From the IMG/VR virus record IMGVR_UViG_3300037804_000484, positions 1 to 20,218 of that record: a stretch of DNA of 20,218 nucleotides; one strand, given 5' to 3'. The stretch is from a virus. The position numbers and the translations under genes are program-made. Under the pieces are notes generated by a model. The model searched no databases. It was given only the letters and a program-made list of their open reading frames with translations, and was not told the DNA's origin. This document shows, piece by piece, positions 16,716 through 19,842 of this stretch (positions are counted from its first letter, which is position 1; every line of letters begins with the position of its first letter).

Positions 16716-17096
16716 TTGAAATATAATTTTGCTTACATTACGAATATAAGCATTATTATCTGCAAATTACATATTATATGCAATTATATTTCACTTAGAT
16801 GTAAAATCAAAGACTACTTATATAGCGCTTTTTTATACATGTCACCTCTTCCAGAATGTCAATGAACGAATTTAAGCGACCGAAAGTAGTAAATAAAAGT
16901 GGACAGATAACAAAAATTTCGTTTAAAAGTGTACAAAAGACATAAAAGCGTATTAAATAGAATATAAACTGCACATATATGTCATATATCATAATATCGC
17001 TATATTATGATGTACTATTAAGACTTAATGCGTAGGAAGAATATTTTCTTTATATTTGAATTGAGTTTCACAAGCAGCTTTTTGTAATGAAATTTC

Positions 17097-17130
17097 AAAA
17101 AAAGTCCGAATTTAAGTCCACCCATAAAAT
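17097..17130 (+). repeat. Direct repeat copy 1, integrase arm-type pair (left)
   Basis: This 34-bp unit is repeated at 17241-17274 with four mismatches. It holds two GTCC motifs, at 17104 and 17116, exactly 12 bp apart (AAGTCCGAATTT then AAGTCCACCCAT). The same 12-bp spacing occurs right of the tRNA core, so I infer integrase arm-binding sites. Confidence 0.6.
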
Positions 17131-17240
17131 TTGAAATTACAAAAGCCTTTACCTGAAAGGGATTCAGAGCTTACGTACACCTCCTACCCAAGGATGAGTA
17201 CGGTTAAATTTTAGGTAATTTTAGGATAAAAGCAAAAGTG

Positions 17241-17274
17241 AAAAAAAGTCCGATTCTGAGTCCACCCAAAAAAT
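17241..17274 (+). repeat. Direct repeat copy 2, integrase arm-type pair (left)
   Basis: Second copy of the 34-bp unit, starting 144 bp after the first, with GTCC motifs at 17248 and 17260 (AAGTCCGATTCT then GAGTCCACCCAA). A 6-bp inverted repeat ACCAAC/GTTGGT follows directly at 17278-17296. Confidence 0.6.
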
Positions 17275-17321
17275 CAGACCAACGTAAAGTGTTGGTAATA
17301 AAGGGATTAATAGCCTAAATC

Positions 17322-17372
17322 TGCATCCTTGGTAGGGATGAGGTCGACAGTTCGAATCTGTTCGTCAGCTCA
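17322..17372 (+). other. attP core: 3' half of a tRNA-Thr(GGT) gene
   Basis: The segment reproduces a tRNA from the anticodon arm to the 3' end: anticodon stem CATCC/GGATG around the loop TTGGTAG with anticodon GGT (Thr), variable region, T-arm GACAG-TTCGAAT-CTGTT, acceptor strand CGTCAGC, discriminator T and CA. No D-arm or 5' acceptor strand lies upstream, so this is not a whole tRNA gene. A phage-borne 3' half restores the host tRNA after integration, and the anticodon stem gives the short inverted arms with a 7-bp spacer that tyrosine recombinases use as core. The integrase gene starts 240 bases downstream. Confidence 0.85.
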
Positions 17373-17427
17373 AAGCAAACAAGATCAAAAACCTACCTAA
17401 AGCCCACTAATACTGGGAAAACAGAGA

Positions 17428-17460
17428 GAAAGGAATCCAAATCGGGTTCCTTTCTTTTTT
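17428..17460 (+). terminator. Rho-independent terminator behind the tRNA fragment
   Basis: GAAAGGAATCC (17428-17438) pairs with GGGTTCCTTTC (17444-17454) around the loop AAATC and is followed by TTTTTT. After integration it would end transcription of the restored tRNA-Thr gene and shield the integrase gene from read-through. Confidence 0.85.
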
Positions 17461-17508
17461 GCTTTATACGCAATTATATAGCGCAGAGAGGAGTATAGAG
17501 GGGTATAC

Positions 17509-17546
17509 GTGGTCCATCCTGTGGTCCACCCCCCATCAATGGACTT
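17509..17546 (+). repeat. Right arm-type sites: 12-bp tandem repeat plus an inverted copy
   Basis: GTGGTCCATCCT (17509-17520) and GTGGTCCACCCC (17521-17532) are a 12-bp tandem repeat with three mismatches. They share GTCCA(C/T)CC with the left repeats and the same 12-bp spacing. The sequence at 17538-17546 carries GTCCAT in inverted orientation (complement of 17540-17545). I infer the P' arm sites of the integrase. Confidence 0.6.
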
Positions 17547-17609
17547 GTTTATATGAATTATTTTCAAGAGATTTACCTAAAGTTAGATAGCCATTAGAAT
17601 GTAGGTATT

Positions 17610-18869
17610 ATGTCAGAGAATAAGTTCTTCAAACTTCGAAAACAAAACAAATCAAAAAAAGAATACATTAGAGTAGATTTTTATCACCTAAAAGTCCGCG
17701 TCAAATTTTCAACAGGCATTTACGTGGAATCGGAGCATTGGGATGCCCCGGAACAAAAAATTAGAAAAAGCCACCCCTTTTCCACCACCTACAACTACGA
17801 GTTAAAAAAGATACACGATCGCATACTTGTCGCCTTAAAAAAGGTAGAGGGGGATTTTTCCACAAAGAAATTCATGGACCTGTACAAAGAGCAGGACAAG
17901 ATATCAGTCTATAAAGCCTGGGAGAACTACCTGGAAAATGCCGAAAAGAAAAAAACACTTAAAGCCGCATATATTACAAGCCATGAAAATGCCTTGGATA
18001 ACTTCAGGGACTTCCACAAAGATAAGCCCCTTTTATTTACAGACATCAGCAATGACCTGATCAATAAATGGGGGCAATCGTTAGGCAACGATACTTATAC
18101 TCGAAGACTCTCTGCATTTCTAGGCGAGGTGGAGGGAACTTTATTCTTACCTACCCGGAATGGATTTAGCTGGGAGAAGTTCACCTCAGATAAAAGGGCT
18201 CGAAATAAAAAGCGCAAAAAAAAGAAAAAATTAAGACCGGCTATTCCCATGGACGAACTCGAGATGTTTCTAACCATGGAATTTACCGCCCCAAATTTTA
18301 ACCAAGTACGAAATTATATTTATTTGATGTACATCTGGGGAGGGGTAGAGCCCATAGACCTATTCTCTATAAAAGTGGTAGATTTTAAAAAACAAATCAA
18401 AGAAGACCACTACGATGGAAAGCTTTACTACTACCGCGCTAAAACCGGGAAGCTTTTATTTGTAAGTTACCGAGACATACCCCGTGTGAAAAATTTAGTA
18501 GACGACTATTTAAATAGTAGAGAGAATTGTCGATACCTACTGCCTTTTATGGAAGGCATTGACAATCCCACAACCGATAAAGAAGACCAAAAAAGGTGGC
18601 ACAATAGAAGCGGCTCGATCAACAGGACCTTAAAAAGAATTGCTATTCGACAAGGGTGGTATCCTTCACCCTGGAAGATGAAGTCTATAAAACACGCTTT
18701 CTCACAATCGGCATACGCCGCAGGAGTAAACTCCCTGCAGATGAGTCTTTCACTGGGACATGACGATCATAAGACTTCTGGAACTTACCTATCTCAATAC
18801 GAGCTGGACCAGAAACAAGAGGGCGCCAACATACAGACAAAATTGGCAGTCAAGAAAAAAGAGAAATAA
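17610..18869 (+). CDS. int: Phage tyrosine integrase, 419 aa
   Basis: The protein would integrate the phage at the tRNA-Thr site. Residues 5-80 form the arm-DNA-binding domain typical of Bacteroidetes integrases (KKEYIRVDFYHLKVRVKFS), residues 95-175 the SAM-like core-binding domain, and residues 212-405 the catalytic domain. The beta-hairpin lysine (AKTGK, K278), the LGH histidine (H384) and the nucleophile Y393 in GTYLS are present. The first catalytic arginine (usually in GLR..DL) is E247 in GGVEPIDL, and the HxxRH motif reads KSIKH, so K358 and K361 replace the usual His and Arg. Loss of the first Arg is known in related integrases such as IntDOT; loss of both is unusual. A lysine-rich linker (198-208) precedes the catalytic domain. 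The full length and lack of frameshift suggest function. Confidence 0.9.
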   Translation: MSENKFFKLRKQNKSKKEYIRVDFYHLKVRVKFSTGIYVESEHWDAPEQKIRKSHPFSTTYNYELKKIHDRILVALKKVEGDFSTKKFMDLYKEQDKISVYKAWENYLENAEKKKTLKAAYITSHENALDNFRDFHKDKPLLFTDISNDLINKWGQSLGNDTYTRRLSAFLGEVEGTLFLPTRNGFSWEKFTSDKRARNKKRKKKKKLRPAIPMDELEMFLTMEFTAPNFNQVRNYIYLMYIWGGVEPIDLFSIKVVDFKKQIKEDHYDGKLYYYRAKTGKLLFVSYRDIPRVKNLVDDYLNSRENCRYLLPFMEGIDNPTTDKEDQKRWHNRSGSINRTLKRIAIRQGWYPSPWKMKSIKHAFSQSAYAAGVNSLQMSLSLGHDDHKTSGTYLSQYELDQKQEGANIQTKLAVKKKEK

Positions 18870-18889
18870 CAGCAGCTTAAAATTATAAA

Positions 18890-19156
18890 ATGCACCAAGA
18901 TTTACACTTAGAACTTCAACGCCTCTCACAGCCCATAGGAAAGAAAATAAAGCAAAGGAAATACCCCATAGAACGCTTAAGTAATGAGACAGGCTTGAGC
19001 AAACGAATTATTTACAACATCTTAAAAGGCAAAGATAATTACACCCTTAAGAGTTTAATTGTTTTAACCTCACATTTGGGTTTGTCCTTAACGTATAAGC
19101 GCAGGACAAAATTAGAAGTCAAAATAAAAATACAGGGACAGAAAAAAGAGGGCTAA
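18890..19156 (+). CDS. Small Xre-type helix-turn-helix regulator, 88 aa
   Basis: Residues about 16-68 form an Xre/Cro-like domain: KKIKQRKYPIERLSNETGLS gives helices 1-2, KRIIYNILKGKDNYTLKSL the recognition helix and helix 4, followed by IVLTSHLGLSLTY. The C-terminal tail is very basic (KRRTKLEVKIKIQGQKKEG). It starts 20 bases after the integrase stop and is probably co-transcribed. The role is likely control of lysogeny or of integrase; a repressor such as CI would usually carry a larger C-terminal domain, so this fits a Cro-like or accessory regulator better. Its TAA overlaps the TAG of the convergent excisionase-like gene inside a hairpin. Confidence 0.75.
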   Translation: MHQDLHLELQRLSQPIGKKIKQRKYPIERLSNETGLSKRIIYNILKGKDNYTLKSLIVLTSHLGLSLTYKRRTKLEVKIKIQGQKKEG

Positions 19157-19164
19157 TGCCCTCT
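19142..19164 (-). terminator. Terminator hairpin between convergent genes
   Basis: AGAGGGC (19147-19153) and GCCCTCT (19158-19164) form a 7-bp stem around TAAT. Read on the minus strand it is followed by a run of T (complement of 19142-19146), so it terminates the excisionase/GroES direction well. On the plus strand no T-run follows. Both stop codons of the converging genes lie within the stem-loop. Confidence 0.7.
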
Positions 19165-19398
19165 CTCTAAAAACCGATCAACACTATCTCTTTTATATAG
19201 AAATCGATTGGAAGTTACCGCTTTAATTTGAAGTTTCCACCTTACCCGGTGCCTTTTTACCGTATCCTTAGATACCTGTAAATATGCGGCTACCTGCTCG
19301 ATGGTCATCCATTTACGATCTTTTTCTTTAACGCTATTTTCAACTCGATCGCATACTTCGGAAACCAGTTTTTCAAACTGGACTTGATTTAGTTCCAT
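19153..19398 (-). CDS. Excisionase-like (MerR-type HTH) protein, 81 aa
   Basis: The helix-turn-helix MTIEQVAAYLQVSKDTVKRH (31-50 from the chosen start) followed by a wing and the FLYKRDSVDRFLERGH end matches the HTH_17 group of excisionase and DNA-binding proteins. A short acidic helix forms the N-terminus (FEKLVSEVCDRVENSV). I chose the ATG at 19398 because the 34 residues of the longer frame (to 19500) are hydrophobic, lie antisense to another short frame and match nothing in the family. It probably acts as directionality factor (Xis) for the integrase, or as a regulator. It converges on the Xre gene and shares a terminator hairpin with it. Confidence 0.7.
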   Translation of the reverse strand: MELNQVQFEKLVSEVCDRVENSVKEKDRKWMTIEQVAAYLQVSKDTVKRHRVRWKLQIKAVTSNRFLYKRDSVDRFLERGH

Positions 19399-19435
19399 AA
19401 GTATACTACTTTTATAATAATTAAAAAATGATAAA

Positions 19436-19558
19436 ATGCCATTAGCAGAAAACAGTAAAAACACATTTAGCATGCTTAAAACCGTTGAGGAAATTGGCAC
19501 TTACCAGGTAGTGATCTATTACACCAAGTATATTACGGTGCAGATCAACTTGAATTAG
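19436..19558 (+). CDS. Possible small protein, 40 aa
   Basis: A plus-strand frame from an ATG at 19436 to TAG at 19558 fills the gap between the divergent excisionase-like gene and the end of the GroES-like gene, overlapping the latter's stop by 4 bases. The product begins MPLAENSKNTFSMLKTVEEI and ends in a beta-like, tyrosine-rich stretch (TYQVVIYYTKYITVQINLN). An A-rich stretch precedes the ATG. No family is recognised, and it may be chance. Confidence 0.25.
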   Translation: MPLAENSKNTFSMLKTVEEIGTYQVVIYYTKYITVQINLN

Positions 19559-19842
19559 TGCATAATTCCCATAATCTGATAGCTATCTACTTGCCAGTAT
19601 TCTTTGTCGTTAATTTTAATGGGCATGCAGTTCGCTCCGTTGCCCAAGACCACGGTATTGCCGATCTCTATGCCACGCACATCGGGACCCACAGCAAGAA
19701 CCTCTGTTGTATAATCGTTATCTGACTGTTCTTGTTTGATCATGGACTCGGATTTCACAATACCACTCTCGGTGGTTTTGCTAACTGAAATAGGCTGAAC
19801 TAAAACTCCAGCTCCTAAAGGTTGATAATTCACTTGACTCAT
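19555..19842 (-). CDS. GroES-like co-chaperonin of phage, 95 aa
   Basis: The GroES fold is clear throughout: PLGAGVLVQPI (8-18) is the first strand, ESGIVKSES (25-33) lies in the mobile loop with the GIV tripeptide (27-29) that contacts GroEL, and EVLAVGPDVRGIEIGNTVVLG (47-67), IKINDKEYWQVDSYQIMGIM complete the barrel. The length equals host GroES. Phage co-chaperonins (for example gp31 of T4) replace GroES so that the host GroEL can fold the large capsid protein; the same is likely here. No groEL gene is in the window. It lies 23 bases after the RepL-like gene and upstream of the excisionase-like gene, apart from the late operon. It could instead be a captured host gene with other function. 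Confidence 0.85.
   Translation of the reverse strand: MSQVNYQPLGAGVLVQPISVSKTTESGIVKSESMIKQEQSDNDYTTEVLAVGPDVRGIEIGNTVVLGNGANCMPIKINDKEYWQVDSYQIMGIMH

Follow-up and report, generated by a model that had tools for sequence, protein, structure and literature searches.

The window, a 20,218-bp virus record, carries what we consider to be the attP of a crAss-like phage. With its own integrase, the phage would insert at the anticodon loop of the tRNA-Thr(GGT) gene of small-genome Flavobacteriales, and the left arm of this attP consists of arm-plus-core modules in tandem. We put the probability of this reading at roughly 77%. The motifs, their spacing and conservation, the host tRNA and the junction are read from sequence, and from these we infer binding, catalysis, the role of the accessory modules and lysogeny.

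Reading leftwards, the window encodes a capsid of the crassvirus type (PF23898, E 2.5e-86) together with a P22-like portal and a matching large terminase, and the nearest public capsids are those of gut crAss-like phages, with ~35% identity to the window capsid. Judged by these three predicted proteins, the window is a crAss-like phage (Crassvirales), known here from a 20-kb fragment; no terminal repeats were found in the window. The GroES-like and RepL-like genes are both also present in several terminase relatives. The crAss-like group is usually described as not able to lysogenize, and its isolates reportedly have no genes for lysogeny (PMC8042965, PMC10354031). While capsid, portal and terminase tie the window to the Crassvirales, it differs from these isolates in carrying int, an attP and an excisionase-like gene. 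Within the group, a temperate lifestyle is suspected for the epsilon crAss-like phages, and there are reports of incomplete prophages.

The window has exactly three copies of the motif GTCC-N8-GTCC (17104, 17248 and 17512), always on the + strand, where 0.38 occurrences are expected in 20 kb and 0.005 in the local 551-bp region. None of 5000 dinucleotide shuffles of this region contained even two pairs. All six GTCCs within 17060-17610 are pair members, and 12 bp is the only same-strand distance below 60 bp between GTCCs in this interval. A preliminary description of this DNA had claimed three GTCC pairs with 12-bp spacing, two to the left and one to the right of a tRNA fragment, and an inverted copy. 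The pattern count and the shuffles bear out the pairs, the positions agree with their arrangement, and the inverted copy is present as TGGAC (Table 1). The description also placed the left pairs in 34-bp direct repeats; the repeat stands, but its length does not, as we delimit it as 41 nt with 83% identity (17090-17130 and 17234-17274). The proposed shared core GTCCA(C/T)CC is largely confined to the second site within a pair, and does not hold across 22 arm-type sites, whose common part is GTCC alone, in most cases with A or T and then C after it. The 16-nt repeat TTATAYGCAATTATAT is found on either side of attP (16774-16789 and 17464-17479), and its right copy is partly conserved in the related viral contig L002.

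Table 1. Features of the predicted attachment site and integration cassette in the window.
Feature	Position	Strand	Remarks
Integration cassette (attP, int, two HTH genes)	16716..19554	.	Approximate ends; between a conserved 97-aa gene and groES
Arm-type pair of module 1, GTCC-N8-GTCC	17104..17119	+	Kept in L002/L003
AAAGGGATT motif	17156..17164	+	36 bp before right half of accessory core-type site
Accessory core-type site, GTACACCTCC-TACCCAA-GGATGAGTAC	17175..17201	+	Half-sites and 7-bp spacing of the true core, other spacer
Arm-type pair of module 2	17248..17263	+	Module with the true core
AAAGGGATT motif	17300..17308	+	36 bp before right half (GGATG) of true core
attP core	17319..17345	+	Half-sites CATCC (17324-17328) and GGATG (17336-17340)
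3' part of tRNA-Thr(GGT), anticodon stem to acceptor end	17324..17372	+	Phage-borne
Intrinsic terminator	17423..17459	+	Phage-borne, downstream of tRNA end; conserved in L002
P' arm-type pair	17512..17527	+	176 bp right of core GGATG (175 in L002)
Inverted arm-type site TGGAC	17540..17544	-	28 bp after P' pair start; equal distance in L002
Predicted tyrosine-recombinase integrase, 419 aa	17610..18869	+	Arm-DNA-bind_5 N-terminal domain
Small HTH_3 protein	18890..19156	+	Possible repressor
HTH_17 protein, excisionase-like	19153..19500	-	Candidate recombination directionality factor
GroES-like co-chaperonin gene	19555..19842		Adjoins RepL-like gene

The viral contigs L002 and L003 carry integrases 72-73% identical to that of the window and four GTCC pairs each, three to the left and one to the right of the same tRNA core. 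Between the window and L002, the GTCCs are identical at 24/24 positions and the 8-bp interiors at 7/24 (Fisher 1.6e-7). Because the dS of int is near-saturated in the same comparison and its dN/dS is ~0.06 (0.058), the conservation of GTCC reflects a real footprint and not short divergence. The exact tRNA core pattern was found in no other viral contig, its degenerate form was found among viral contigs in L002 and L003 alone, and the other terminase relatives have no GTCC pairs. Three further pattern matches were discarded: a match of the module pattern with AGGATGAGTACG (L014) is a chance match in coding sequence, and two matches of the accessory-site pattern are a GC-rich coding repeat (L049) and a palindrome without a GTCC module (L050), in neither of which the module model finds a full module.

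ARAGORN detects no complete tRNA in the window, and the tRNA fragment corresponds to the 3' half of tRNA-Thr(GGT) genes that are intact in metagenome-assembled genomes (MAGs). The 3'-half pattern has matches in six Flavobacteriales MAGs, five of which hold an intact tRNA-Thr with anticodon GGT and belong to the same family as the L008 genome. L008, the contig of the sixth, is without a complete tRNA. It starts with 425 bp of GTCC-pair arm that matches no host contig, and from the anticodon loop on it consists of host tRNA, host terminator and host genes, so that its homology to the other MAGs begins exactly at the anticodon-loop spacer. L008 and the window are identical over 49 nt (17328-17376), while the other MAGs compared match over 23 nt. 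The 7-bp spacer of the attP core, TTGGTAG (17329-17335), is the anticodon loop of tRNA-Thr(GGT); it is likely the overlap, and CATCC-TTGGTAG-GGATG is common to the attP core and the intact host tRNA-Thr. The phage-borne terminator that follows the tRNA end has a folding energy of -20.9 kcal/mol (z -5.65).

From this one MAG contig, we interpret L008 as a junction of the attR type. L008 may instead be a chimera assembled across the shared tRNA sequence, as it is a single contig whose arm part stops after 426 bp, and no integrase was found in its bin. The L008 element is known by its arm alone, from which a crAss-like nature is not established. No integrase homologue was found in a scan of the genome contigs and 196 Flavobacteriales genomes, and thus no complete prophage was found. 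The accessory-site pattern in 395 genomes of the class, and the arm-core pattern in 395 genomes of the order, were each found in the L008 genome alone. Within 12 genomes of the L008 family, the module model finds the L008 modules, weakly the tRNA-Thr loci, and nothing else.

The preliminary description proposed an intact phage attP with arm-type sites to the left and right of the core, which is supported by the conservation of both flanks in two phage relatives. It is also backed by L008, which has the left-arm type alone and, to the right, host chromosome without a GTCC pair. The opposite view, that the repeats belong to ordinary host chromosome or to a prophage end, draws on the fact that the window is a metagenomic fragment with no host sequence of its own. 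This is highly improbable, since phage structural genes lie to the left and int to the right of the conserved flanks, and since six host contigs, checked for the GTCC repeats right of the tRNA by which the preliminary description would have been refuted, revealed no GTCC pairs there.

Two features were not noticed in the preliminary description: the accessory core-type site (17175-17201) and the module with its constant 87-88 bp from arm to core. In all modules compared, the right half of a core-type inverted repeat, CATCC-N7-GGATG, lies 87-88 bp downstream of the left-arm pair; this spacing was measured for core-type sites whose arm pair is on the contig, plus the true core. The linkers between modules range from 2 to 46 bp. 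Two modules are present in the window, one of them accessory, three in L002/L003 and at least three in L008, and the left arms hold one accessory inverted repeat in the window, two in L002 and L003, and three in L008. The first unit of L008 (A) has its core-like site alone on the contig, and the arm pairs of modules B and C are degenerate, with GTCA-GTCC at 11 bp and GTCC-ATCC at 12 bp, respectively. The anticodon loop forms the spacer of the last module, while the spacers of the other modules (TACCCAA, TACATCA, TTAGTTG and CTCCTAA) are not related to it in sequence. Shuffled sequences reached the observed number of CATCC-N7-GGATG repeats, true core included, in 3/3000 cases for the window and in 0/3000 for each of L002, L003 and L008; the support for the module rule comes from three independent P arms, and as the modules are related by descent the tests are not independent.

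The accessory half-sites are identical at 19/20 positions between the window and L002, compared to 32/55 (58%) in the neighbouring spacer DNA of the module (Fisher p 0.002). The 7-bp spacer is identical at 4/7 positions in the accessory site and at 7/7 in the true core, and four accessory sites from three lineages have the same right half-site, GGATGAGTAC. A spacer that is kept where recombination needs identity and drifts elsewhere, with the half-sites kept, is the expected look of integrase-binding sites that do not recombine, and we infer that the accessory modules would bind integrase without recombining. The accessory core-type sites of L002 (3487-3513) and L003 (3486-3512) differ by one base, inside the 7-bp spacer. 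The AAAGGGATT motif, which is also seen in the L002/L003 modules and more weakly in L008, is possibly a site for a bending protein.

The main rival to this role is that the accessory modules arose as tandem copies of the real module and are now decaying without a function, their likeness being due to ancestry alone. Descent by duplication is plausible, as the module spacers are 35-62% identical to each other; the copy number differs among the phages, and modules B and C of L008 have a damaged arm site. Against decay stand the contrast between half-sites and spacer DNA, a distance of 87-88 bp that is constant in all modules while the linkers drift, and a right half-site shared across three lineages. 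We regard non-functional duplicates as unlikely, at about one chance in four, and as the strongest of the competing explanations.

Less likely still is that the accessory palindromes (GTACNCNTCC-N7-GGATGAGTAC) are binding sites for a different dimeric protein, for instance HTH_17 or HTH_3, and resemble the core only secondarily. Their symmetry exceeds that of the true core, and the cassette also contains two small HTH genes. Yet both half-sites and the exact 7-bp spacing are common to the accessory sites and the tRNA core, and the accessory sites lie at the core's own distance from the arm pair. We also find it improbable, to a greater degree, that the accessory cores are old or spare attachment cores for other tRNA genes or secondary sites. 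Half-sites kept around a varying 7-bp spacer would suit this explanation, and the L008 spacer CTCCTAA would, by inference, fit the anticodon loop of tRNA-Arg(CCT). As this is one spacer and most do not fit an anticodon loop, the assignment of accessory spacers to other anticodon loops was not adopted. Moreover, no tRNA 3' sequence follows the accessory sites, and in 12 family genomes the closest matches to the window site have 3 mismatches and look like background.

The integrase is a predicted arm-binding tyrosine recombinase without two of the canonical arginines. Its N-terminal part matches Arm-DNA-bind_5 (PF17293, E 7.2e-8) above the cut-off, as do all three relatives, while the core-binding domain (PF13102, E 0.00073) falls just under the curated cut-off and the catalytic domain matches its Pfam model weakly (best E 0.061). 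In an alignment that includes two distant gut-phage integrases, Tyr393, His384 and Lys278 are kept. The first canonical catalytic Arg is absent, with Glu247 near its place and R276 conserved, and the second is Lys361; both states are the same in the integrases of the window, L002 and L003. These two distant gut-phage relatives have 21-22% identity to the integrase. A PDB sequence search was empty, and the AlphaFold model (mean pLDDT 35.6) was too poor for use. The integrase resembles the IntCTnDOT subgroup of Bacteroidetes in its arm-binding domain family, in the missing first Arg and in the conserved downstream Arg (R276 here), (PMC8138268), and differs from it in having Lys361 in place of the second Arg.

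The distance from groES to the conserved 97-aa gene is ~116 bp in two relatives that have no integrase, L020 (1155-1271) and L030 (1900-2016), and 2.84 kb in the window. From this comparison, the cassette appears to have been gained by the window's branch or lost outside it.

The attachment site resembles a lambda-type attP in its arm-type sites on both sides, its inverted half-sites around a short 7-bp spacer, the presumed overlap, which is identical in attB, its adjoining int and the arm-binding N-terminal domain of the integrase. The AAAGGGATT motif and the HTH_17 gene are candidates for the bending-protein and excisionase features. However, lambda attP has a single core, whereas the left arm in the window repeats whole arm-plus-core modules with unrelated spacers. 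The attI site of class 1 integrons has extra recombinase-binding repeats beside the crossover site, like the accessory sites in the window, but there is no arm-binding domain, no tRNA target, and the geometry is different. As in an element that integrates at a tRNA anticodon loop, attP holds the tRNA 3' half and the junction, seen in one contig, is at the loop. In actinobacteriophages, putative arm-site pairs flank a 30-45-bp common core in the attP of tyrosine integrases, and this core is the host tRNA 3' half, which is rebuilt at attL (PMC10865867). The window shares these paired arm sites around a tRNA 3'-half core, but the passages on these sites describe no tandem core-type modules, and phage and host group are unrelated (PMC10865867). 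Paired arm sites around a tRNA core are already known; no published description of an arm-plus-core module array in attP was found in a search that covered few subscription journals.

In the mechanism that we propose, the phage tyrosine integrase would recombine attP into the tRNA-Thr(GGT) anticodon loop of small-genome Flavobacteriales. Its N-terminal domain would bind the paired GTCC arm sites 12 bp apart, and its C-terminal part the CATCC/GGATG half-sites around the 7-bp overlap. Integration would split attP within the anticodon loop, so that the host 5' half and the phage-carried 3' half rebuild the tRNA at attL. The rebuilt tRNA would be followed by the phage's own terminator and then by int, the terminator separating the two. 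At the other end, the GTCC-rich left arm would come to lie beside the host's old 3' half, as in L008. Of the arm-plus-core modules that follow one another in fixed geometry along the left arm, the sole one to recombine would be that with a 7-bp spacer equal to the host anticodon loop, and the accessory modules might be docking sites which load or hold extra integrase.

How the crAss-like group persists is an open question, with isolates described as being without lysogeny genes. Our analysis points to one crAss-like branch whose integration cassette is conserved and under purifying selection, and to a predicted host family in which a matching junction is seen, which makes lysogeny directly testable. 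We tentatively suggest, at somewhat less than even odds, an attachment-site design in which all but one of the rigid 87-88-bp modules have a mismatched overlap and would load or position integrase without recombination, in crAss-like phages that may be temperate in small-genome Flavobacteriales. The modular left arm would also be a clean system for studying the geometry of arm and core binding and the role of core sites that do not recombine.
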